Shown piece by piece: positions 21,246-62,312 of a stretch of 64,000 nt of DNA. The translations under genes and the position numbers were made by a program. Source of the DNA: Syntrophomonadaceae bacterium (GTDB lineage Bacteria > Bacillota > Syntrophomonadia > Syntrophomonadales > Syntrophomonadaceae); assembly GCA_012520725.1 (NCBI GenBank), contig JAAYNQ010000002.1, positions 62,001 through 126,000 of the forward strand, read 5' to 3'. A model generated the notes under the pieces. It saw only the letters and a list, made by a program, of their open reading frames with translations. It did no database searches and was not told the DNA's origin. Each line of letters begins with the position of its first letter. The stretch's first letter is position 1.

Positions 21246-22544
21246 TTATAGACGCAAAGCCAATTCCCTGGCATGCCTGGCGGCCTGATCCAAAACCAGC
21301 TCTTCATCAAAAGTAAGGATTTTACGGTTTTCCATGATGAGCTGCCCGTTTACCATCACCGTATCCACATCGGCGGCCTGGGCTGAATATACTATATTGG
21401 CCATAATATCGTGGATGGGCTGTATATGGGCCTGCTTTAAATCAAGCATGATTAGATCCGCTTTCAGTCCAGCTTGCAATGATCCTATTTCCTTATTTAG
21501 ACCCAGGGCCTGGGCTCCATTAACAGTAGCCATCTCAAGAGCTTGATAGGCGGTAATAACAGTGGGATCCATTTTATTAACCTTATGCAATAAAGCAGAG
21601 CTGCGCATCTCCTGCAGCATATCCAGATTGTTGTTGCTTGATGCCCCATCAGTCCCCAGGCCGACGGCCAGTCCTGCTTTCAGCATTTCAGGTACCGGGG
21701 CAATGCCACTTCCCAGCTTCATATTGCTCTCCGGATTATGGGCCACACCTACTCCTTGCTCTTTCAGTATCCTAATATCATCGGAGTTTAAATGCACACA
21801 ATGAGCGGCTATGGTATTTAGCTCCAATAATCCTACTTCCTCCATCAATTCCACTGGAGTCTTACCATATTGCTTCTTAATATTTTCTACTTCCCCTTCC
21901 GTCTCGGCAATATGGGTATGTATACCCACATTCAGCTCCCGGGCTAAAGCTATTACCCGCTTCAGGTAAGAAGGGGGACAGGTATAGGGAGCATGGGGAC
22001 CTAAGCGGAAGTTTATTCTTTCTCCGGCCGAACGATGCCATTTTTCTACCAGACGGCGGCTGTCCTCCAGACCACTGTCAGCCTCCGGTCCCAATCCTAT
22101 CAAGCCTCGACACAGGACGGCCCTGATTCCTGTTTCCTCTACTGCCCGGGCTGTTTCTTCCATAAAAAAGTACATATCATTAAAAGTTGTGGTCCCTGAT
22201 TTTATCATCTCCAAAATCGCCAGCATACTGCCCCAGTAAATGTCCTCCGGCTTAAGCTGAGCTTCCAGGGGCCAAATCTTCTGCTCCAGCCACTCCATTA
22301 AAGGCAGATCATCAGCATATCCTCTCATCAGACTCATGGCGGCATGAGTATGAGTGTTGATAAAACCGGGCATTACTACTTTGTCTTTTCCATCAATCAC
22401 CAGGTCATAGGGTCCTGGAGCAGCGGAACCAGCCCCCAGCTCTTTAATCAGCTGCCCTTCTATTATCAGGTAGCCCGGCTGGATAACCCTGTCTTGTCCG
22501 GTAATGGGCAGTATACAGGCGTTTTCTATCAGAATACGCACCAT
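21246..22544 (-). CDS. mtaD: 5-methylthioadenosine/S-adenosylhomocysteine deaminase-type amidohydrolase
   Basis: A 432-residue amidohydrolase with the metal site motifs in order: PGFINTHTHAAMSLMRG (about 55), HAPYTCP (about 185), HIAETEGE (about 215), HCVHL (about 245) and GTDGASSNN (about 295). The family deaminates MTA, SAH or adenosine. The neighbours are MTA phosphorylase, MTR-1-P isomerase and a class II aldolase, so MTA or its deaminated form is the likely substrate. It starts at an ATG right behind the aldolase stop (1 base), so it is the last gene of that operon. Confidence 0.9.
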   Translation of the reverse strand: MVRILIENACILPITGQDRVIQPGYLIIEGQLIKELGAGSAAPGPYDLVIDGKDKVVMPGFINTHTHAAMSLMRGYADDLPLMEWLEQKIWPLEAQLKPEDIYWGSMLAILEMIKSGTTTFNDMYFFMEETARAVEETGIRAVLCRGLIGLGPEADSGLEDSRRLVEKWHRSAGERINFRLGPHAPYTCPPSYLKRVIALARELNVGIHTHIAETEGEVENIKKQYGKTPVELMEEVGLLELNTIAAHCVHLNSDDIRILKEQGVGVAHNPESNMKLGSGIAPVPEMLKAGLAVGLGTDGASSNNNLDMLQEMRSSALLHKVNKMDPTVITAYQALEMATVNGAQALGLNKEIGSLQAGLKADLIMLDLKQAHIQPIHDIMANIVYSAQAADVDTVMVNGQLIMENRKILTFDEELVLDQAARHARELALRL

Positions 22545-23210
22545 TTATTCCTCCTTTACTATTTTACTGGGTCCGTAGCTCTTAAACTTCTGATACAGCT
22601 GAACAATTTCAGCGGATTCCAGAGTCCGGGCTCCTCCCAATTCCTGGGCATATAAGGCTATCTGGGCCGTTTTCTCCACCACATAGCATATCCTTAAAGC
22701 GTCCTCCATGGATACCCCGGCAGCCAGGAGGCCATGGTTGGCCAGCAGCACTGCCCTCCGGTCCTCTCCTAAACTATCCAGCACAGCAGTAGCCAGAGCC
22801 TGGGTGCCACAAAGGGCATATTCGGCTACCGGCACTTCATGCCCCACCACCTGGGCGGTTTCTTCCAGGATTACCGGGATACTTTTCCGGGCTACCGCAA
22901 AGGAGCTGGCATAAATGCTATGTACATGGACAATGGCCTTTACTCCTTCTCTATTTCTATATATTTCCATATGCAAGGGGGTTTCAATGGAGGGCTTATA
23001 ACTCCCTTCCCTGATTCTATAACTACTGTCAAGCAGCACCATATCTTCCATGGACATAAGCTGGTAATCAACTCCGCTGGGAGTAATAAGCATTAATTCA
23101 GGTTCTGGGCAACGCATACTAACATTGCCCCAGGTTCCCATAACCATACCGCTTTGGGAAATCTCCCGGGCTGCAGCTAAAACCTGCCGGCGTTCTTCCA
23201 GAAATCTCAT
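22545..23210 (-). CDS. class II aldolase/adducin family protein, probable methylthioribulose/deoxyribulose-1-P aldolase
   Basis: A 221-residue fuculose-phosphate aldolase-type protein. Zinc ligands are visible in HVHSIYA (about 95) and LLANHGLLAAG (about 155), with Glu75 region SIETPLHMEIYR. The family cleaves or dehydrates ketose-1-phosphates. MtnB dehydratases share this fold, but the other genes of the full methionine salvage (mtnC, mtnD, mtnW/X) are absent here. With mtnA and mtnP next door, cleavage of methylthioribulose-1-P (or deoxyribulose-1-P) to DHAP and an aldehyde, the DHAP shunt, fits better. That assignment is inference. Start ATG 23210, operon spacing 17 bases from mtnA. Confidence 0.85.
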   Translation of the reverse strand: MRFLEERRQVLAAAREISQSGMVMGTWGNVSMRCPEPELMLITPSGVDYQLMSMEDMVLLDSSYRIREGSYKPSIETPLHMEIYRNREGVKAIVHVHSIYASSFAVARKSIPVILEETAQVVGHEVPVAEYALCGTQALATAVLDSLGEDRRAVLLANHGLLAAGVSMEDALRICYVVEKTAQIALYAQELGGARTLESAEIVQLYQKFKSYGPSKIVKEE

Positions 23211-23227
23211 TATTATCTCCCCCTTAG

Positions 23228-24262
23228 CTAATTGGTTTTTAATTGTTCCAGAGCACTGAGGTAAGGTGGTTTAATGATACCTTTTTCGCTAATTATACCT
23301 GTTATCAAATGCTGGGGGGTTACATCAAAGGCAGGATTGAATACCTCTACTTCCGGAACCGTTAGATAACTACCGGCAATCAGCCGTACCTCGTCTTGAT
23401 GTCGCTCCTCTATGGGAATCTGGGCCCCATTATCTATACTCCAGTCGATAGTAGATAAAGGAGCCGCTACATAAAATGGTATATTATGGTAGGATGCTAA
23501 AACCGCAAGAGAAAAAGTTCCAATTTTATTGGCTACATCTCCATTGGCGGCTATGCGGTCGGCCCCCACTATTATCAGGTCAACTTTACCCAGCTGCATG
23601 GTATACCCGGCCATACCGTCAGTAATCAAAGCCACCGGTATACCTTCCTGCATTAATTCCCAAACCGTAAGACGGGCTCCTTGCAATACCGGCCTGGTTT
23701 CACAAGCCCATACCTTGTCTATCTTACCCCTGACGGCAGCGGAGCGGATCACTCCCAGGGCGGTACCATAGCCGCAGGTAGCCAGAGCCCCGGCATTACA
23801 TATAGTCAAAACCCGCCCCCCTTTAGGGACTACTTCTTGTCCATGATCACCAATAGCCCGGTTAATAGCAATGTCCTCGGCAAACATTGCTTCTGCCTCA
23901 GCCCTGAGTACCTGGGCCAGGGTCTCCAGATCCAAATGACGATGGGTCATATAGGCCTTCTCCATTCGTTTTAAAGCCCAAAAGAGATTCACGGCAGTAG
24001 GGCGAGTTGAGGCTAATAGCTTACGAGTAGCCTGAAAGTACTGATCCACCTGCTCTGCCGGCCCTCTATAATTACTTATCCCCAGGGCCAGGCCGAAGGC
24101 AGCTGTTACCCCAATCAAAGGCGCCCCCCGGACCTTGAGCCTGACAATGGCATCCGCTACTTGAGCTGGGTTATCACATTTTTCATAAAGCAGTTTATCC
24201 GGTAACTGGCTCTGATCCAGCAACATTAGCGAATCATCTTGAAAATAGACCGTTTTTATCAT
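23228..24262 (-). CDS. mtnA: S-methyl-5-thioribose-1-phosphate isomerase MtnA
   Basis: A 344-residue protein with family motifs VRGAPLIGVTAAFG (residues 44-57), CNAGALATCGYGTALG with the catalytic Cys155, and VGADRIAANGDVANKIGT with the catalytic Asp235. It converts MTR-1-P (and in some organisms 5-deoxyribose-1-P) to the ribulose form. The ATG at 24262 overlaps the mtnP stop as ATGA and has GGAG upstream; the longer frame from 24298 lies within mtnP. It is distinguished from eIF2B-type paralogues by these active-site motifs. Confidence 0.95.
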   Translation of the reverse strand: MIKTVYFQDDSLMLLDQSQLPDKLLYEKCDNPAQVADAIVRLKVRGAPLIGVTAAFGLALGISNYRGPAEQVDQYFQATRKLLASTRPTAVNLFWALKRMEKAYMTHRHLDLETLAQVLRAEAEAMFAEDIAINRAIGDHGQEVVPKGGRVLTICNAGALATCGYGTALGVIRSAAVRGKIDKVWACETRPVLQGARLTVWELMQEGIPVALITDGMAGYTMQLGKVDLIIVGADRIAANGDVANKIGTFSLAVLASYHNIPFYVAAPLSTIDWSIDNGAQIPIEERHQDEVRLIAGSYLTVPEVEVFNPAFDVTPQHLITGIISEKGIIKPPYLSALEQLKTN

Positions 24263-25050
24263 TGCTTTACTCCAGTTTGATCCATGATTTTCACACAATC
24301 ACAATTTCTTTCCGGTTTTATGTTTTTAATGCTTTCCAGCATCAGCTTTCTGACTTTGCTGGTACTCTCTTTCATCCTTTGTAAAACTTCGCTGTGGGTA
24401 AGTATGGTGGGAGAAATGCCGGCTGCATAATTAGTAATGATGGAAATATTAGCATAGCAGATTCCCAGCTCCCGGGCCAGACACACTTCGGGAACACTGG
24501 TCATACCTACCAGGTCTCCCCCCAATTGCTTAAACATATCAATTTCCGCTGCGGTCTCAAAGCGAGGTCCTTCCGTACATACGTAGGTACCACCGTTTTG
24601 CAGGGCAAAACCACATTCCTGGGCAGCTTGGGCTACTGCCTCACGCAGTTCCGAGCAATAAGGCACTGTCATATCACAATGAAAAACTCCCTGTTCCCCA
24701 CCATCAAAAAATGTATTTATCCTGTTTTTGGTAAAATCCAGGAATTGGTCAGCCAGGACAAACATGCCCGGCTTTAAATCCAGGTTCAAAGAACCCACCG
24801 CAGCCGTAGCCAGTATGCATTTAACCCCTAGCATTTTCAGACCCATAATGTTAGCCCGGTAGTTAATCAGGTGGGGCGGAACACTGTGTTGGGACCCATG
24901 CCGGGGGATAAAGGCTACCTCCTGACCATGATATTGGCCTATGGTCAAAGTGACTTTTCCATAAGCTGTATCCTGAGTAATCTCTCTAATATCATCTAAG
25001 ATCCTGGGGTCATAAACCCCGGTACCACCAATAATAGCTAATTCAAGCAT
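24259..25050 (-). CDS. mtnP: S-methyl-5'-thioadenosine phosphorylase
   Basis: A 263-residue MTAP-family protein with GGTGVYDP near the start, RHGSQHSVPPHLINYRAN (about 54-72), GGTYVCTEGPRFET and MTSVPEVCLARE. It phosphorolyses MTA to adenine and methylthioribose-1-P, feeding mtnA. The VCLARELGICYA-TNYAAG region is of the MTAP type rather than the purine nucleoside phosphorylase type. It is the first gene of the salvage operon; ATG 25050 follows AAGGAGG. MTA comes from polyamine or related SAM-consuming reactions, and radical SAM enzymes yield 5'-deoxyadenosine, which this pathway may also process. Confidence 0.94.
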   Translation of the reverse strand: MLELAIIGGTGVYDPRILDDIREITQDTAYGKVTLTIGQYHGQEVAFIPRHGSQHSVPPHLINYRANIMGLKMLGVKCILATAAVGSLNLDLKPGMFVLADQFLDFTKNRINTFFDGGEQGVFHCDMTVPYCSELREAVAQAAQECGFALQNGGTYVCTEGPRFETAAEIDMFKQLGGDLVGMTSVPEVCLARELGICYANISIITNYAAGISPTILTHSEVLQRMKESTSKVRKLMLESIKNIKPERNCDCVKIMDQTGVKQ

Positions 25051-42395: not shown

Positions 42396-42414
42396 AAATA
42401 AGGCTTTAACAGTC

Positions 42415-42646
42415 TATTTCTATCAAGCTCTACACATCTACACCGCAAGCCTCTGGATAGTTGTTTCGGGCTTCAGCTTGTTCAGCAGCTTGCAGTGCCT
42501 CATATGTGATTTCTGTTCGTCAGGCCAGAAGTTTGCCTCCGGCTTCCTTCAGATTCCACCTAGCGATGGACACCTTGCCCTTGGCTATGTGCTTGGGACT
42601 ATCAACCCGCACTAGGGACTTTCACCCATTAGACTGCCGGGCGCAC
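42415..42646 (-). ncRNA. group II intron domain I-like RNA, or raiA-type ncRNA
   Basis: Read on the minus strand from 42646, the sequence opens GTGCGCCCGGCAG, then GGGTGAAAGTCCC, AAGGTGTCCATCG, GGTGGAATCTGAAGGAAG, CCGGAGGCAAAC and CTGACGAACAGAAATC. These blocks, in this order, are those of domain I of bacterial group II introns, beginning with the 5' GUGCG. No domain V/VI hairpin and no intron-encoded reverse transcriptase lie nearby, so it is either a truncated intron or a free-standing RNA of about 230 nt such as the raiA motif of Firmicutes. The boundaries at 42415 are approximate. Short open frames here are not genes. Confidence 0.65.
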
Positions 42647-51947: not shown

Positions 51948-52238
51948 TTATTCTTTGCATAAAGGGCGGGTTAACTCGCTGTTGCTGATCCTTTTCCACC
52001 AGGAACAGCTCAGCTCCCGCAAGGGTTCCAGGATTCCTAATTCCCGGAGCAGTTTACCCATAGTGGTGCTCTCCCCTCCCGGCAGAATAATACCGTCTAT
52101 TCCAGACAATTGCTGGGGTTTCCTCACCTGGATAATATCTATTCCTGGAATCTTTTGCAGGCATTGAACATGTTCCATAACCGATCCCTGCAGGGCCAGC
52201 ACCCCCACCTGCAAACCTTTACCAACCTCGATGGGCAT
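51948..52238 (-). pseudogene. pdxT: pdxT remnant, 3' part lost
   Basis: The first 77 residues match PdxT glutaminase (VGVLALQGSVMEHV, IILPGGESTTMGKLLREL, GILEPLRE). After residue 77 homology ends abruptly and an unrelated tail of about 20 residues leads to a stop. A full PdxT has about 190 residues; the catalytic Cys of GTCAG and the His-Glu pair are missing. It cannot supply ammonia to PdxS. The deletion end faces ku. The 5' end overlaps pdxS by 20 bases, with GGAGG before the ATG, as in an intact pdxST operon. Confidence 0.85.
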
Positions 52239-52926
52239 ATTGATCCTCCAGTTTATCTATCTCCAAACCCTCCATAGCGTCACCTAATCCTTCCGAGACT
52301 TCCATAATAATCTGGGGGTCCTGATAGTTGGTAGTGGCCTTGACAATAGCCCGGGCTCTGGCTTCCGGATCTGCCGATTTAAAGATACCTGAACCGACAA
52401 ATATTCCATCACAGCCTAGCTGCATCATTAGAGCGGCATCGGCCGGTGTAGCTATTCCCCCGGCAGCAAAGTTGACCACCGGTAATTTTTTATGTTCGGC
52501 AATATAGTCCAGCAGCTCTACCGGAGATCCAATCTCTTTAGCATAAGTCATGCGTTCTTCCCGGGGCATAAGTTGTACCCGGCGAATTTGCGAGCTAATG
52601 CAGCGCATATGCCTGACGGCCTCTACCACATTACCGGTTCCGGCTTCACCTTTAGTGCGGATCATGGCCGCCCCTTCGCCGATTCTGCGCAGGGCCTCTC
52701 CCAGGTCTCTGGCTCCACATACAAAAGGAATATCAAAGCTCTTTTTGTCAATGTGGAACATTTCATCCGCCGGAGTCAAGACTTCGCTTTCATCAATAAA
52801 GTCGATACCAATAGCCTGCAATATTTGTGCTTCTACAAAATGCCCTATTCTCACTTTGGCCATGACTGGGATACTAACCGCCTTTTTTATCTCCTTAATC
52901 ATTTTGGGATCGGACATACGGTCTGC
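52219..52926 (-). pseudogene. pdxS: pdxS remnant, 5' part lost
   Basis: From the ATG at 52917 the frame matches PdxS from MSDPKMIK to the C-terminal RGW (232 residues), including [10 protein letters not shown] with the catalytic Lys, [10 protein letters not shown] and the [17 protein letters not shown] stretch. Homology runs three codons further upstream (to 52926), then meets a TGA. About 60 N-terminal residues of the family are absent, including the IMDV Asp of the active site. The join to the MocR fragment is right there. It lacks a ribosome site and promoter and is very likely non-functional. Confidence 0.85.
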
Positions 52927-53366
52927 TCAAAGCCAAACACTCTTCCGATATATCCACCCCGGGATTGATACAGAGAAGCTTTGATCTTTATTTAAAAAAA
53001 GGCCTGTGGCTAAAACACCTGCAGTTTATGAAAAACACTTATCAAGAAAGATACCAAATTATGCTAAAAGCCATGCAAGCTCACCTGCCTAAGGAAATAA
53101 GCTACACTGAGCCGGGGGGAGGCCTGAGTTTCTGGTTAAGGTTGCCCGCCGGCAGTTCGGCCAACTATTTCTATACCTGCTGTCTGGAAAAGCAGGTCAT
53201 TATCAGTCCAGGCAGCCTATTCTCTGCTTCCGATGAACGGGACAGCGAATATTTCCGCTTGAGCTTTGCCGGACTCTATCCTGATGAGATAGAAAAGGGT
53301 ATTTTAGCCCTCAATGCTGCCTATCAAGAGCAGGATTCTCCACCTCTCTACTCCCCCCTGCTCTAA
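52923..53366 (+). pseudogene. C-terminal fragment of a MocR/PdxR-type aminotransferase-like regulator
   Basis: From [12 protein letters not shown] at 52923 on, the frame matches the last third of the fold type I aminotransferase domain: PGGGLSFWLRLP, KQVIISPGSLF, YFRLSFAGLYPDEIEKGI. The N-terminal GntR-type DNA-binding part and most of the aminotransferase domain, with the PLP lysine, are gone. The frame has no upstream start and runs into pdxS. A PdxR-type MocR regulator divergent from pdxST is a common arrangement, so this was probably pdxR. A free aminotransferase is an alternative. Confidence 0.75.
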
Positions 53367-57072: not shown

Positions 57073-58389
57073 TTGTCAGAACTAGACATGTTGGTAATTC
57101 CGGAACAGGTCGAAGCCGAGGGTGGTTATGCCATTGCTACTTATTTTATTGAGACTGCTGTTAACACTGACATTGTAAAAAAGATAGCTTCCATTGGAAT
57201 AGAACAGACTACCGGAACCTGGGTAGCGGTTCCCGAAGAAACCCCTGAAGTTCGAGCCAAGCATGTGGCCAGAGTGGTAGGGATTTATGAAGTTCCAGCC
57301 CATGAGTTTGAAGTTCCGCCAGAGCAAAAAACCCGCCGCTTTGTGTTTCAACTGGCTTTCCCAGTAATTAACTTTGGAGCTCAGATCCCCATGATGCTAA
57401 GTACTATTATCGGCAACATTTCCATGGCCGGAAGGCTCAAGCTGCTGGATATCAAATTCCCCAAAGAATATATGGATGGGTTTTTGGGCCCCAAATTCGG
57501 GGTGGAAGGTATACGTGATTTGTTAGGGGTTTATGATCGTCCTCTCTTGAACAATATGGTTAAACCTTGCACCGGCTATACTCCGGAGGTGGGCTGCAAG
57601 CTATTCTCCCTGGCCATTGAAGGGGGAGTGGATATAGTAAAAGACGATGAATTGATTGCTGATCCTCCTTTCTGCCCCCGGGAGGAAAGAATCAAACTGT
57701 ATATGCAGGCCATAAAGCAGCATTACGAGGCAACCGGCCACAAAGTACTCTATTGTCCCAACATTACCGATTCAGCGGCTAAATTGATGGATAATGCCAA
57801 ACGAGCTATTGATGCCGGTGCCAACGCTCTTTTAATAAACTACTTAACTGTGGGTATATCTAATTTGCAAGCCCTGGCCGAAAGTCCCGATATTAATGTA
57901 CCTATCATGGCCCACCTGGATTTTGCCGGAACCATGTACGAATCCCCCATATCCGGTATGAGTTCACATCTTATTCTAGGCAAACTGGTTCGCCTGGCCG
58001 GAGCCGATATGGTAGTATACCCCAGTCCTTTTGGTAAATTCCCTCTTTTAAGAGAACGCTATCTGCAAATAGCTCATCATTTGAGCAGCCCCTGGTGTCA
58101 CATTAAACGAGTACTTCCCATGCCCGGCGGGGGTGTAATGCATAATTGCGTTCATGCCATTATTCGCGACCTGGGCATCGACAGCATATTAGGAGTTGGA
58201 GGTGCCATTCACGGGCATCCCATGGGACCGGTGGCTGGAGCCAGGTCCATGCGCTACGTAATAGACGCAGCAGTAAAAGGGATCTCCTTCCAGCAAGCTG
58301 CTGAAGAAAATCCTGAAGTGAGAGCAGCCTATGATGCCTGGGGAGTAATGGAAGAAGAGGAAAGCATGCTTTTTGAAATTAAAGGTTAA
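57073..58389 (+). CDS. RuBisCO-like protein (form IV), function unknown
   Basis: A 438-residue RuBisCO large-subunit fold. Conserved residues (spinach numbers): Glu44 (E60), Thr49-Trp50 (T65-W66), Asn115 (N123), Lys164 (K175), the IVKDDE motif with Lys190, Asp192, Glu193 (K201, D203, E204), His281 (H294) and Lys322 (K334). Changed: Cys166 (K177), Leu282 (R295), Val315 (H327), Gly352 (S379) and Ala (G404). It therefore keeps the carbamate/metal centre for enolisation but not carboxylation. Form IV proteins enolise or isomerise phosphosugar-like ketones. Start TTG 57073 with AGGAGG. First gene of the Tm-1/ComB cluster; the neighbours make MtnW a poor fit. Confidence 0.9.
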   Translation: MSELDMLVIPEQVEAEGGYAIATYFIETAVNTDIVKKIASIGIEQTTGTWVAVPEETPEVRAKHVARVVGIYEVPAHEFEVPPEQKTRRFVFQLAFPVINFGAQIPMMLSTIIGNISMAGRLKLLDIKFPKEYMDGFLGPKFGVEGIRDLLGVYDRPLLNNMVKPCTGYTPEVGCKLFSLAIEGGVDIVKDDELIADPPFCPREERIKLYMQAIKQHYEATGHKVLYCPNITDSAAKLMDNAKRAIDAGANALLINYLTVGISNLQALAESPDINVPIMAHLDFAGTMYESPISGMSSHLILGKLVRLAGADMVVYPSPFGKFPLLRERYLQIAHHLSSPWCHIKRVLPMPGGGVMHNCVHAIIRDLGIDSILGVGGAIHGHPMGPVAGARSMRYVIDAAVKGISFQQAAEENPEVRAAYDAWGVMEEEESMLFEIKG

Positions 58390-58408
58390 AGATTAAGGAG
58401 GTTTTACC

Positions 58409-59254
58409 ATGGCTAAACACTACACACGGGAAGAAGTATTGACCAGGCTTAAAAACAGTATTGGGGCGGGAAAGCCCATTATAATCGCCGGAGCTGGTAC
58501 CGGTATTTCGGGTAAATTCGCTGAGCAAGGCGGAGTTGACTTAATTGGAGTATACAATTCCGGTCTGTATCGCATGGATGGTAAAGGCTCTCTGGCTGGT
58601 CTGATGCCATACGGAGATGCCAATCAGATTGTCATCGACCTGGCTAACCGGGTTTTCCCGGTGATCAAAGAAACCCCTATGATAGCTGGTATATGTGGAA
58701 CCGATCCCACCCGGGAAATGGCTCCCTATTTAAAGACCCTGATAAACCTGGGTTTTTCCGCAGTTATGAACTTCCCCACCGTAGGCCTTATTGACGGCAG
58801 ATTCCGGCAGGAACTGGAGGATACCGGAATGGGTTACGGAGTGGAAATCGAAACCCTAAAAATTGCCAAATCACTGGGTATGTTTACTTTGGGTTATGCC
58901 TTTAATGTGGAAGAAGCCAGACTGGTGGGGCAAGCCCAATTGGATGTACTGATTTGCCACATGGGTCTTACCGCCGGCGGATCCATAGGTTCCAAATATG
59001 CCGAGGATAAACTGACCCTGGAAAAGTCAGCTGATTTGATCAATGAAATGACAGCCGCAGCCCGGGAAGGATATAAAGATATAATGATCTTCTCCCATGG
59101 TGGTCCCATAGCTTATCCGGAAGATACCCGCTATATTTATGAAAAAACTGAATCGGTAGGATTTTTGGGCGCTTCCAGTATTGAACGTATACCTATAGAA
59201 GTCCCCCTTAAGGAAGCCTGCCAGCAATTCAAGAACATCCCCTTGAAAAAATAA
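58409..59254 (+). CDS. PF09370-type TIM barrel (Tm-1 C-domain-like), copy A
   Basis: A 281-residue TIM barrel of the phosphoenolpyruvate mutase/hydrolase-like family found as the C-terminal domain of the tomato Tm-1 protein and as a separate bacterial gene. Motifs: IIAGAGTGISGKFAEQGG (about 26-43), YNSGLYRMDGKGSL, AGICGTDPTREM (about 93), NFPTVGLIDGRFR (about 121) and CHMGLTAGGSIG. An acid-type phospho-substrate is likely; reaction unknown. ATG 58409 has AAGGAGG 7 nt upstream, 19 bases behind the RuBisCO-like gene, clearly co-transcribed. Confidence 0.88.
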   Translation: MAKHYTREEVLTRLKNSIGAGKPIIIAGAGTGISGKFAEQGGVDLIGVYNSGLYRMDGKGSLAGLMPYGDANQIVIDLANRVFPVIKETPMIAGICGTDPTREMAPYLKTLINLGFSAVMNFPTVGLIDGRFRQELEDTGMGYGVEIETLKIAKSLGMFTLGYAFNVEEARLVGQAQLDVLICHMGLTAGGSIGSKYAEDKLTLEKSADLINEMTAAAREGYKDIMIFSHGGPIAYPEDTRYIYEKTESVGFLGASSIERIPIEVPLKEACQQFKNIPLKK

Positions 59255-59267
59255 GGGGGTTTAATAG

Positions 59268-59295
59268 GGGCCTGCTTCTTTTCAGGGGCAGGCCC
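59268..59295 (+). terminator. hairpin inside the cluster, weak terminator or processing site
   Basis: GGGCCTGC (59268-59275) pairs perfectly with GCAGGCCC (59288-59295) around a 12-base loop in the 87-base gap before the ComB-like gene. Only TTTTC follows 9 bases later, so it may attenuate rather than end transcription. Confidence 0.4.
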
Positions 59296-59341
59296 AGGCA
59301 AGTTTTCAAACAGAATCAAAATCCTGATAATGGGGGCTATT

Positions 59342-60094
59342 ATGCGAGCAATTGAAGTGGATGTGGCAGTTACTCCGGATGCCTTCCTGGCAGAATGGAA
59401 AAACAGGGTGGTTATGGTTATCGATGTACTCAGAGCCAGCTCTACCATAGTAACTTTGCTGGAACATGGATGCAAAGCTGTATATATACTAAGGGAAGAA
59501 AAAGAAGCCCTGAAACTGCATAAAAAAACCGGTATGATTCTAAGCGGTGAACGTGACGGGTTAAAACTACCCGGTTTTGCCATGGGCAATTCCCCTTGCG
59601 AAGTCTTGGAAGATAAGTCCAGAGTAAAAGACCAGGGTGTAATCCTTACCACTACCAATGGAACCCGAGTGATAGAAGCACTGGCTGATAGCCGGATTCT
59701 ATTGGCCGCTGCCTTATTAAATGCCCGATCCTGTGCTCAGACCGCACTGGACTTGGCCCGGAAACAGGATAGTGGACTGGCTCTGGTCTGTGCAGGTGAG
59801 AAAGGTCAATTCGTTCTGGATGATGCCTTTTGTGCCGGACATATTGTAAAGGAGATAATTAGTCTGGCCCATCAGCAAAACCTCCCCTTGCAATTAAATC
59901 CCACTAGCGAAGCGCTAATACAATTGTCCCAAAAATATGCTGACAGTCTCTCAGCTTTTAAAGACTCCTGGAGTGGCCAGAGATTGCTGGAAATTGACCG
60001 GCAGGATGATCTGGAATTCTGTTGCCAGGTTAACATTTATGAAACGGTCCCGGTGTTGGACCGAAACGGAAAGAAACACTTTACCCCTATGTGA
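59342..60094 (+). CDS. ComB-family 2-phosphosulfolactate phosphatase-like protein
   Basis: About 250 residues of the ComB family: VIDVLRASSTIVTLLEHG (about 24-41), LSGERDGLKLPGFAMGNSP (about 63-80), LTTTNGTRVIEAL and CAGEKGQFVLDDAFCAG (about 155-171). ComB dephosphorylates 2-phosphosulfolactate in coenzyme M synthesis; in bacteria without coenzyme M the substrate is open. Here a related 2-phospho acid or phospho-ketone is plausible. ATG 59342 with GGGGGC is preferred over ATG 59330, which overlaps that site. In the middle of the RuBisCO-like cluster. Confidence 0.87.
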   Translation: MRAIEVDVAVTPDAFLAEWKNRVVMVIDVLRASSTIVTLLEHGCKAVYILREEKEALKLHKKTGMILSGERDGLKLPGFAMGNSPCEVLEDKSRVKDQGVILTTTNGTRVIEALADSRILLAAALLNARSCAQTALDLARKQDSGLALVCAGEKGQFVLDDAFCAGHIVKEIISLAHQQNLPLQLNPTSEALIQLSQKYADSLSAFKDSWSGQRLLEIDRQDDLEFCCQVNIYETVPVLDRNGKKHFTPM

Positions 60095-60116
60095 ATAATA
60101 AAGGAGGGTGTTAATT

Positions 60117-61460
60117 ATGGCCAATCAACCTCAGATTCTAGTGGCAGGTATTTTGGATACCAAAGGTGATGAAATAAAGTTTCTGGCGGAGCGAGTAAAA
60201 GCGGCTGGTGGCAAGGCCACTATTTTGGAACTAAGCGTAGGCCATGAAGTTGGCTGGGCTGACATCAGTGTGAGCCAGGTAGTAGCCAGGATGGGAAAAA
60301 GCAAGGAAGACATTTTTGCTCTGGATAGAGGCCAGGCTTCAGATTTGATAGCTGCCGGGGCTATCAAACTGGCAGATGAGTTACTTAATGCCGGCCAATT
60401 GGATGGAATAATCGCCTATGGCGGTTCCATGGGAGCCAGCATCGCTACCCGGATCATGCAGTCCCTGCCCATTGGGATACCTAAATTCATGCTTACCACC
60501 ATGGCCTCGGGAGACGTTTCCCCTTATGTAGGTACCCGGGATATATGCATGATGTACCCCATTGCAGAAGCGGGCTTAAACAAGGTTACCCGGCAGGTGC
60601 TGAATAATGCAGCAGCAGCCATAGTAGGCATGGCTTCTGCCCCCCCCATGGAAAATATTGAGGAAAAACCGCTGATAGGTTGTATGATGTTCGGTGTTAC
60701 TACCCCCTGTGTTTTGAAAGCCTCTGCCTACATGGAAGATAAAGGATATGACGTGATTATCAACCACGCGGTGGGCAGTGGGGGCAGATCCTTGGAGGAA
60801 TTGATCCGGGATGGATTTATCGCCGGAGTCCTGGATATTACTACTCATGAAATAGGAGATGAAATGCTGGGCGGGGTGCTGGGAGCCGGAGAAGACCGGA
60901 TGACCGCAGCCGGTGATATGGGTATACCCCAGGTAGTGGCCCCAGGAGGATTGGATCTGATCAATTTTGGCCCCCGGGATACGGTCCCGGAAAAGTTCAT
61001 CCAGGAAACCGACCAACCAGGCCGTGGTTTGTATATACACAATCCTACCGTAACCTGTGTTGGGGTATCGTTGGAAGAGATCTATCGTATCGGTGAACAC
61101 ATGGCAGCCAAATTAAATAAGGCCCAGGGACCCAGTGTACTCTGTGTGCCCATGCGCGGCTGGGGAGCCTGTGATTTGCCTGAGCCAGATATAGAGCTGG
61201 GCTGGGCCGGTCCTGGAGCTGGTCCGGTATGGGTGGCCGACCCTGATCATCCCCAGTGGTCTTTAAGGTCGGTTCGCTATGTGGAGGCCCTGCGCCAGAG
61301 CATAGATAAAAACAAAGAAAACCTGGAGGTCATACTGGTTGACAGGCATATGAACCAACCCGAATTTGCCGTTCTTATGGCTGAACTCTTGACCGAAATG
61401 CTGGAAGGCCGGTGGACAAAAGGTAGTCATAGCGACCGTCCCGATATTATCCCCTTTTAA
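60117..61460 (+). CDS. UPF0261 (Tm-1 N-domain-like) ATP-binding protein
   Basis: A 447-residue UPF0261/PF06792 protein: LVAGILDTKGDEIKFLAERV (about 8-27), GLDGIIAYGGSMGAS-type IIAYGGSMGASIATR (about 95), TTMASGDVSPYVGTRD and ITTHEIGDEMLGGVLGAG (about 240). The same domain forms the N-terminal half of the plant Tm-1 virus-resistance protein and binds ATP. Bacterial function is unknown. ATG 60117 with AAGGAGG; GTG 60108 overlaps it. The TIM-barrel partner gene follows 18 bases later, matching the fused order in Tm-1. Confidence 0.9.
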   Translation: MANQPQILVAGILDTKGDEIKFLAERVKAAGGKATILELSVGHEVGWADISVSQVVARMGKSKEDIFALDRGQASDLIAAGAIKLADELLNAGQLDGIIAYGGSMGASIATRIMQSLPIGIPKFMLTTMASGDVSPYVGTRDICMMYPIAEAGLNKVTRQVLNNAAAAIVGMASAPPMENIEEKPLIGCMMFGVTTPCVLKASAYMEDKGYDVIINHAVGSGGRSLEELIRDGFIAGVLDITTHEIGDEMLGGVLGAGEDRMTAAGDMGIPQVVAPGGLDLINFGPRDTVPEKFIQETDQPGRGLYIHNPTVTCVGVSLEEIYRIGEHMAAKLNKAQGPSVLCVPMRGWGACDLPEPDIELGWAGPGAGPVWVADPDHPQWSLRSVRYVEALRQSIDKNKENLEVILVDRHMNQPEFAVLMAELLTEMLEGRWTKGSHSDRPDIIPF

Positions 61461-61478
61461 CACATGGAGGTGGAGCGA

Positions 61479-62312
61479 ATGGCAATCCAATACAGTCGTA
61501 AAGAAATAATCAGGCGGCTTTCCGAGCAGGTTAAACAAGGCCGTTCCCTGTTAATGTTTGGAGCTGGAAGCGGATTGACCGCTAAATGTGCCGATATTGG
61601 AGGAGCCGACCTGATTGCAGTATATTCCACCGCCAAATTTAGGATGATGGGGCAGCCTACCCTCCTGGCCTGGATGCCTTATGAAGACTGTAATGCCTGT
61701 GTCAAGGAAATGGCTTTGGAAATCATCCCGGTAGTAAAACAGGCCCCCTGTATAGCCGGCATCGGTGCTCACCACCCGGCACTAAACCTGTCCCGGACCA
61801 TTGATGAGATGATGGCCCTGGGCTTTTCTGGTATTACCAACGAGCCTTTTGCTGGTTTGTATGGTGATTTCTTTGCCCAGCAGCTGGAAGCAGCTGGTAT
61901 CGGTTTCTCCCGGGAGGTAGAGCTTATTCAAACTGCTCACGACAAGGATATCTTTACGGTAGCCTGGGCTTTCAATGCCCGAGAAGCCAGGCTGATGGCC
62001 CAGGCTGGAGCAGATGTGATCGGGGCTATAGTAGGGGTTACCAGTGGGGGTTTGACCGGAGCCCAGGAGATGATAAGCCTGGAAGAGGCGGTAAAAACCG
62101 TACAGGAAATCACGGATGCTGCCCAGGCCGTAAATCCTGAGCTTATGATCCTAACTCATGGGGGGCCATTCAAGGATGTGGATACTGCATCATATTCCGT
62201 TCAATACTCCGCCGCCCATGGTTATGCCTCCGGTTCCAGCGGCGAAAGGATGCCCACGGAAAATGCGGTAATAGAAATTACCCGGCAATATAAAGAGATC
62301 AGGTTAAAGTAA
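61479..62312 (+). CDS. PF09370-type TIM barrel (Tm-1 C-domain-like), copy B
   Basis: A 277-residue paralogue of the 58409 gene. Shared: LLMFGAGSGLTAKCADIGGADL (part), YSTAKFRMMGQPTL, WMPYEDCN and AWAFNAREARLMA. Differences at probable active-site loops: AGIGAHHPALN replaces AGICGTDPTRE, and TNEPFAGLYGDFF replaces the NFPTVGLIDGRF segment. So copies A and B probably act on different compounds or steps. ATG 61479 follows GGAGGTGGAG; the ATG at 61464 is rejected. Last gene of the cluster, followed by a terminator. Confidence 0.88.
   Translation: MAIQYSRKEIIRRLSEQVKQGRSLLMFGAGSGLTAKCADIGGADLIAVYSTAKFRMMGQPTLLAWMPYEDCNACVKEMALEIIPVVKQAPCIAGIGAHHPALNLSRTIDEMMALGFSGITNEPFAGLYGDFFAQQLEAAGIGFSREVELIQTAHDKDIFTVAWAFNAREARLMAQAGADVIGAIVGVTSGGLTGAQEMISLEEAVKTVQEITDAAQAVNPELMILTHGGPFKDVDTASYSVQYSAAHGYASGSSGERMPTENAVIEITRQYKEIRLK

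Follow-up and report, generated by a model that had tools for sequence, protein, structure and literature searches.

The 64,000-nucleotide stretch analysed here (the window; contig JAAYNQ010000002.1, positions 62,001 to 126,000, from a Syntrophomonadaceae bacterium) carries a five-gene operon that opens with a RuBisCO-like protein (RLP). Open reading frame (ORF) listing and a Pfam search give five ORFs on one strand, all with scores far over the Pfam cut-offs (Table 1): the RLP, two PF09370 TIM barrels (TIM1 and TIM2), a ComB-like phosphatase and a UPF0261 protein. This is the gene set described in the initial annotation. Its spacing is likewise reproduced when Shine-Dalgarno-backed starts are used, with gaps of 19, 87, 22 and 18 bases, the long one preceding the ComB-like gene. 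Shine-Dalgarno sequences favour the listed starts of the RLP (a TTG), TIM1, UPF0261 and TIM2, while the ComB-like ATG has a weak ribosome-binding site. Because the flanking genes are unrelated and on the opposite strand, the operon consists of these five genes only. The genome is a 2.64 Mb draft in which PF09370, PF04029 and close RLP genes occur only at the operon. An Rfam scan of the window found no RNA element near the operon, promoter and terminator scans there gave signals no better than shuffles, and a scan of viral contigs returned no match.

Table 1. Genes of the RLP operon, in window coordinates
Feature	Coordinates	Strand	Details
RLP, RuBisCO-like protein, 438 aa	57073..58389	+	TTG start, AAAGGAGG upstream; PF00016/PF02788
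TIM1, canonical PF09370 TIM barrel	58409..59254	+	PF09370 358.9 bits
ComB-like phosphatase	59342..60094	+	PF04029 213.6 bits; ATG at 59330 is another possible start
UPF0261 (Tm-1 N-domain family), predicted small-molecule kinase	60117..61460	+	PF06792, PF23189; alternative GTG 60108
TIM2, divergent second PF09370 TIM barrel	61479..62312	+	PF09370 316.0 bits; alternative ATG 61464

These genes make up a real, widely distributed catabolic module, so far uncharacterised, with a core of RLP, TIM1, UPF0261 and TIM2. Intact RLPs with 75-100% identity are present in nine genomes of the window's family, the window genome included, and the gene is frameshifted in a tenth (G009); the core order is seen in these genomes wherever the contig extends far enough. 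A genome-wide scan yielded 80 RLP loci. The block is found in 21 loci of clade A (Syntrophomonadaceae and related Bacillota), some of them ended by contig edges, and in nine loci of clade B (other Clostridia, Oscillospiraceae, Candidatus Formimonas warabiya and Desulfoscipio). Relatives maintain the order RLP-TIM1-(ComB)-UPF0261-TIM2, and a Caldisericota locus (L053) holds the RLP, UPF0261, two PF09370 genes, ComB and a dehydrogenase together in a different order. Where ORF calling missed an RLP or ComB (ComB in L145, for example), presence was established by tblastn.

Among 398 Bacillota genomes, 14 carry a close RLP, 14 a close UPF0261 and 13 both (hypergeometric p about 2e-22, shared ancestry ignored). 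All 13 double carriers have the two genes on one contig, separated by 0.9-1.9 kb. In the unmatched RLP genome (G316) the contig's equivalent record (L045) stops just past the RLP, and in the unmatched UPF0261 genome (G083) the adjoining RLP carries two stops. With the order kept in relatives and both genes within 2 kb in 13 genomes, the association is not due to chance. The neighbourhood check put forward with the initial annotation therefore came out in its favour, UPF0261 and PF09370 accompanying RLPs across distant genomes of Bacillota and Caldisericota. Of the broken RLPs, that of Syntrophomonas DTU019 UFZ-1H11 has a frameshift and that of G083 has stops (L051 10001-11294, L199 9508-10431), with the partner genes intact in these loci. 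The nearest relative (G013; L027 / L069) has a second, clade B-type RLP that adjoins PHP and SorC genes and lacks the UPF0261 module.

The RLP belongs to form IV: it has the RuBisCO large-chain domains (PF00016, 154 bits; PF02788, 36.9 bits), the carbamate Lys201 with Asp203 and Glu204, and an incomplete RuBisCO active site. The full active site of forms I-III is missing in the window RLP and family-wide. To our knowledge, form IV RLPs beyond methionine salvage and apionate breakdown are mostly without assigned function. The best match in the PDB is MtnW (2oek, 320 bits), and the top NCBIfam matches are also MtnW, but the RLP stays under every NCBIfam equivalog cut-off among the MtnW, OiaX and RuBisCO models. 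It reaches 340.0 bits with the MtnW model TIGR03332 (cut-off 513.6), 385.6 with PRK09549 (cut-off 409) and 203.8 with the OiaX model NF042437 (cut-off 700). In trees built without the form IV groups Photo, NonPhoto and DeepYkr, MtnW is a separate clade (100/100), OiaX-like proteins stand apart with full support, and the window RLP family forms clades of its own. MtnW references also have Gly60, Lys at 123 and Ser or Thr at 334 (RuBisCO numbering throughout, from the family alignment), where the window RLP has Glu, Asn and Lys. Cut-offs, residues and tree exclude that the RLP is MtnW; score, clade and the absence of a DUF1537 gene from the window genome exclude that it is OiaX. It lies outside both assigned clades.

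An MtnW-type methionine-salvage enolase, partnered with the MtnA encoded elsewhere in the window, is for these reasons highly improbable, even though deaminase, class II aldolase, MtnA and MTAP genes stand in a row at 21246-25050 (-). That set is a methylthioadenosine / 5'-deoxyadenosine salvage route of the dihydroxyacetone phosphate (DHAP) shunt type, complete without an RLP, and relatives' clusters show no mtn gene. The earlier remark that no other mtn gene lies in the cluster holds for the cluster but not for the genome, which carries MtnA at 23228-24298, 33 kb off and in this separate set. The initial annotation had further likened the RLP and phosphatase to the MtnW-MtnX steps. The RLP fold, the similarity to MtnW and a phosphatase gene in some lineages are shared, but the analogy fails at the active site, where MtnW references have Lys in place of Asn123 and lack Glu60 and Lys334; the RLP has no mtn neighbours, and the phosphatase is ComB-type and dispensable.

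The active site of the family is a selective remnant of that of RuBisCO. Glu60, Thr65, Trp66, Asn123, Lys175, Lys201, Asp203, Glu204, His294 and Lys334 are retained, and Gly380, 381, 403 and 404 mostly so. Lys177, Arg295, His298 and His327 are lost, being replaced in the window RLP by C, L, A and V; three of them (Lys177, Arg295 and His327) are residues of the second phosphate site. Read through established RuBisCO chemistry, this pattern would mean an intact metal-carbamate and CO2-handling site with one phosphate site instead of two. Glu60, Asn123 and Lys334 are tied to CO2 chemistry in RuBisCO, and clades A and B and the RLPs linked to a phosphotransferase system (PTS) or an FGGY kinase retain all three almost without exception. 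In clades C and D (Petroclostridium and others) Glu60 is replaced by Gly and Lys334 by Gly or Asn, and the family therefore probably has more than one reaction. At one locus (L144) residue 334 reads as Lys in a first table and Gly in a second alignment, which weakens residue claims for its divergent clade. Retention of RuBisCO catalytic residues, Lys334 included, in strict anaerobes and archaea would suit a true carboxylase acting on a monophosphorylated ketose, whose enediolate would take up CO2. We consider this very unlikely: loss of Lys177, Arg295, His298 and His327 makes ribulose bisphosphate an improbable substrate, and the neighbouring genes look catabolic.

Family RLPs without UPF0261 usually adjoin another phosphorylating system, either a galactitol-type PTS or an FGGY kinase. 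PTS-linked loci contain EIIA, B and C, a SorC-type regulator, dehydrogenases and a class II aldolase, and FGGY kinase loci often include a class III aminotransferase. Clade C RLPs have triosephosphate-isomerase-like, RpiB and amidohydrolase genes as neighbours. Clade D loci combine a ribose-type ATP-binding cassette transporter, a lactonase-like gene, UPF0261, the RLP, a triosephosphate-isomerase-like gene and a class II aldolase, with no PF09370. An annotated Rhizobium OiaX cluster, for apionate catabolism, consists of DUF1537 kinase (OiaK), OiaX, triosephosphate isomerase and RpiB genes. As in that system, a kinase gene, here a predicted one, adjoins the RLP gene, the carbamate Lys, metal ligands and Lys334 are retained, and clades C and D add triosephosphate-isomerase-like and RpiB or aldolase genes. 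The window operon differs in its kinase candidate, which appears unrelated to DUF1537, in its additional PF09370 barrels, and in an RLP that is 28% identical to OiaX, falls in a separate clade and lacks Arg295. The simplest reading of these neighbourhoods is that UPF0261 may fill the kinase slot and PF09370 the downstream aldolase or isomerase slot. In seven clade A loci the gene immediately preceding the RLP encodes a GlpP-type glycerol-3-phosphate antiterminator, and SorC-type sugar-phosphate regulators adjoin many other RLP loci; both fit a small phosphorylated inducer, without naming one.

Two further gene associations were seen around family RLPs. Thorarchaeal and other archaeal members adjoin formate-tetrahydrofolate ligase and FolD genes (L074, L079, L083 and L085). 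In many Syntrophaceae / Deltaproteobacteria loci a conserved 357-aa gene without Pfam or NCBIfam match directly follows the RLP (L092 11344-12417; cluster c7).

UPF0261 is most likely a kinase feeding the RLP, because other RLPs of the family adjoin a PTS or FGGY kinase, the nearest solved structure binds acetovanillone, and a kinase of acetovanillone catabolism, MarK, is reported from the same organism as that structure. Both Pfam domains of UPF0261 are over their cut-offs (PF06792, 176 bits; PF23189, 227.6 bits). The structure in question, 9mpy (Saro_1862 of Novosphingobium aromaticivorans), matches in sequence with 223 bits and 33% identity over about 370 residues, and is the top Foldseek match of the predicted UPF0261 structure; a tomato Tm-1 domain is the only other close solved relative. 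Acetovanillone catabolism in N. aromaticivorans is reported to begin with MarK, a single-component kinase (PMC13101465). If Saro_1862 is MarK, the ATP use that had been assigned to UPF0261 would be backed by a characterised relative of the same family, one that acts on an aromatic ketone, whereas the window protein has RLP and PF09370 partners.

Gene context elsewhere points the same way. In clades C and D UPF0261 and the RLP are 59-1041 bases apart. On a plasmid of P. putida YC-AE1 (L156 5986-12328) it precedes biotin carboxylase and HAD phosphatase genes and occupies the slot held in the Hpe (hydroxyacetophenone) pathway by the two-component HpeHI kinase. HpeHI itself was wrongly considered as a UPF0261 kinase; it is a two-component dikinase of the rifampin phosphotransferase type. 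DUF1537 kinases are absent from the top 50 Foldseek matches of the UPF0261 model, and the two were treated as unrelated. UPF0261 is found in 97.4% of bacterial genomes carrying the PF09370 (TBST) domain, and the trees of the two are correlated (PMC5028733).

The partner genes and the RLPs have separate histories. Partner trees join clades A and B (support 100 for TIM1, 99 for TIM2 and 92/97 for UPF0261), whereas the RLP tree groups clade B with the PTS-linked RLPs (100/100). A single RLP clade for A and B is rejected (approximately unbiased test, p = 2.5e-8); the tested set A took in the Caldisericota RLP, whose position is unsure; its inclusion contributes to this p value but has no part in the 100/100 grouping. 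Because the partners of A and B share ancestry while their RLPs do not, module and RLPs were recombined, either by replacement of the RLP in place or by movement of the three-gene module next to another RLP. The same three partners, TIM1, TIM2 and UPF0261, work with RLPs of separate descent.

These neighbourhoods and exchanges bear on what the RLP does. It could isomerise or tautomerise a ketose phosphate, with no CO2 chemistry, like the R. rubrum RLP, leaving the PF09370 barrels to cleave the isomer. The dehydrogenases and class II aldolases of PTS-linked relatives suit a polyol to ketose-phosphate route, RLPs are interchangeable between PTS and UPF0261 settings, and neither Glu60 nor Lys334 is retained in clades C and D. 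We hold this as a tentative alternative, against which stand the near-constant Glu60, Asn123 and Lys334 of clades A, B, PTS and FGGY, and the Lys334 that OiaX keeps too. Because the three residues are retained, an OiaX-like reaction that decarboxylates a phosphorylated 3-oxo sugar acid would be somewhat more likely than plain isomerisation.

The PF09370 barrels (PEP hydrolase-like) score far above the family cut-off of 33.8 bits. TIM1 matches 2p10 with 286.8 bits, and its AlphaFold model (pTM 0.89) retrieves 2P10 in Foldseek, followed by the phosphate-binding barrels PdxS, triosephosphate isomerase, PdxJ, methylisocitrate lyase and indole-glycerol-phosphate synthase. Because TIM2 is a separate clade, conserved in clades A and B, the two barrels are likely to serve two distinct steps or to form a hetero-oligomer. 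The initial annotation spoke of split Tm-1 domains, a misleading term, since prokaryotes normally carry UPF0261 and PF09370 as separate genes and the fusion in plants is derived (PMC5028733). Plant Tm-1 and Tm-1-like proteins thus combine the same two domains in fused form, while the window operon has separate genes, two PF09370 copies and an RLP.

The ComB-like phosphatase is an accessory and not a core component. Its TIGR00298 score is only marginally over the cut-off (175.6 against 175.05 bits), with 1vr0 as structure match. In most of clade A (at least 17 loci, and G121) the gene is found between TIM1 and UPF0261. The nearest relative (L031) has only about 19 of its C-terminal residues left; L043, L049 and the nine clade B operons all lack it, and in Caldisericota it is present again, downstream. 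It is also the least conserved gene, at about 40-50% identity against 85-97% for TIM1. This distribution does not support a core role for ComB. A role of the cluster in the synthesis or breakdown of sulfolactate or of coenzyme M precursors, which the TIGR00298 match might suggest, is scarcely credible, as ComB is dispensable in relatives and the window genome has no ComA (no PF02679 match); a coenzyme M route is rejected on that absence.

We give about an even chance to a model in which UPF0261 acts as a kinase, the RLP enolises or decarboxylates, PF09370 cleaves and ComB optionally dephosphorylates, with each activity, the order of reactions and the substrate all predicted. UPF0261 would use ATP to phosphorylate a small ketone or keto-acid. 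At its carbamylated-lysine and Mg site, the RLP would take a proton, or CO2, from beside the ketone, giving the enediolate of a mono-phosphate substrate. The two PF09370 barrels would convert the product into fragments for central metabolism, most likely by retro-aldol cleavage or isomerisation. The ComB-like phosphatase would be a lineage-specific helper that strips phosphate from a product or side product. Judging from the genes around the RLPs of clades C and D and of the PTS group, our guess at the substrate is a three- to five-carbon sugar acid or ketose.

Several points weigh against this model. The UPF0261 model superposes on its relatives with a moderate TM-score of 0.5-0.6, probably from domain motion, and the identity of Saro_1862 with MarK is one that we infer ourselves. 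Clades C and D, whose neighbours are the most OiaX-like, may run another reaction than the window RLP. We know of no assayed PF09370 member, and the window cluster contains no transporter gene. The pathway for a phosphorylated acid sketched in the initial annotation survives in part: co-occurrence, the position of the RLP outside assigned clades and the probable ATP use by UPF0261 favour it, while ComB as a core partner and the MtnW-MtnX analogy fall away.

A limited literature search on UPF0261 with RLPs, on PF09370 and on apionate with RLPs found no report. The halves of Tm-1, UPF0261 and PF09370, occur in bacteria, archaea, fungi and plants, and we know of no pathway that they share. With RLP, UPF0261 and PF09370 locked in one operon and one of them linked to a kinase, their roles become testable together, and the retained catalytic residues make this RLP family a useful subject for studying the origin of RuBisCO chemistry. 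CO2 chemistry of the family on monophosphorylated substrates might even constitute a new CO2-releasing or CO2-fixing route in anaerobes and archaea, with PF09370 as a novel type of phospho-acid lyase that would also account for what Tm-1 proteins natively do in plants and fungi; we regard this extension as unlikely.

Two further features lie elsewhere in the window. A group II intron at 42408-42570 (-) is the sole Rfam match of the window (RF02001, 88 bits). PdxS at 52219-52917 (-) lacks about 60 N-terminal residues and lies beside a C-terminal PdxR fragment of 133 aa at 52965-53366 (+), a pair that looks like a deletion breaking both genes, or an assembly error.

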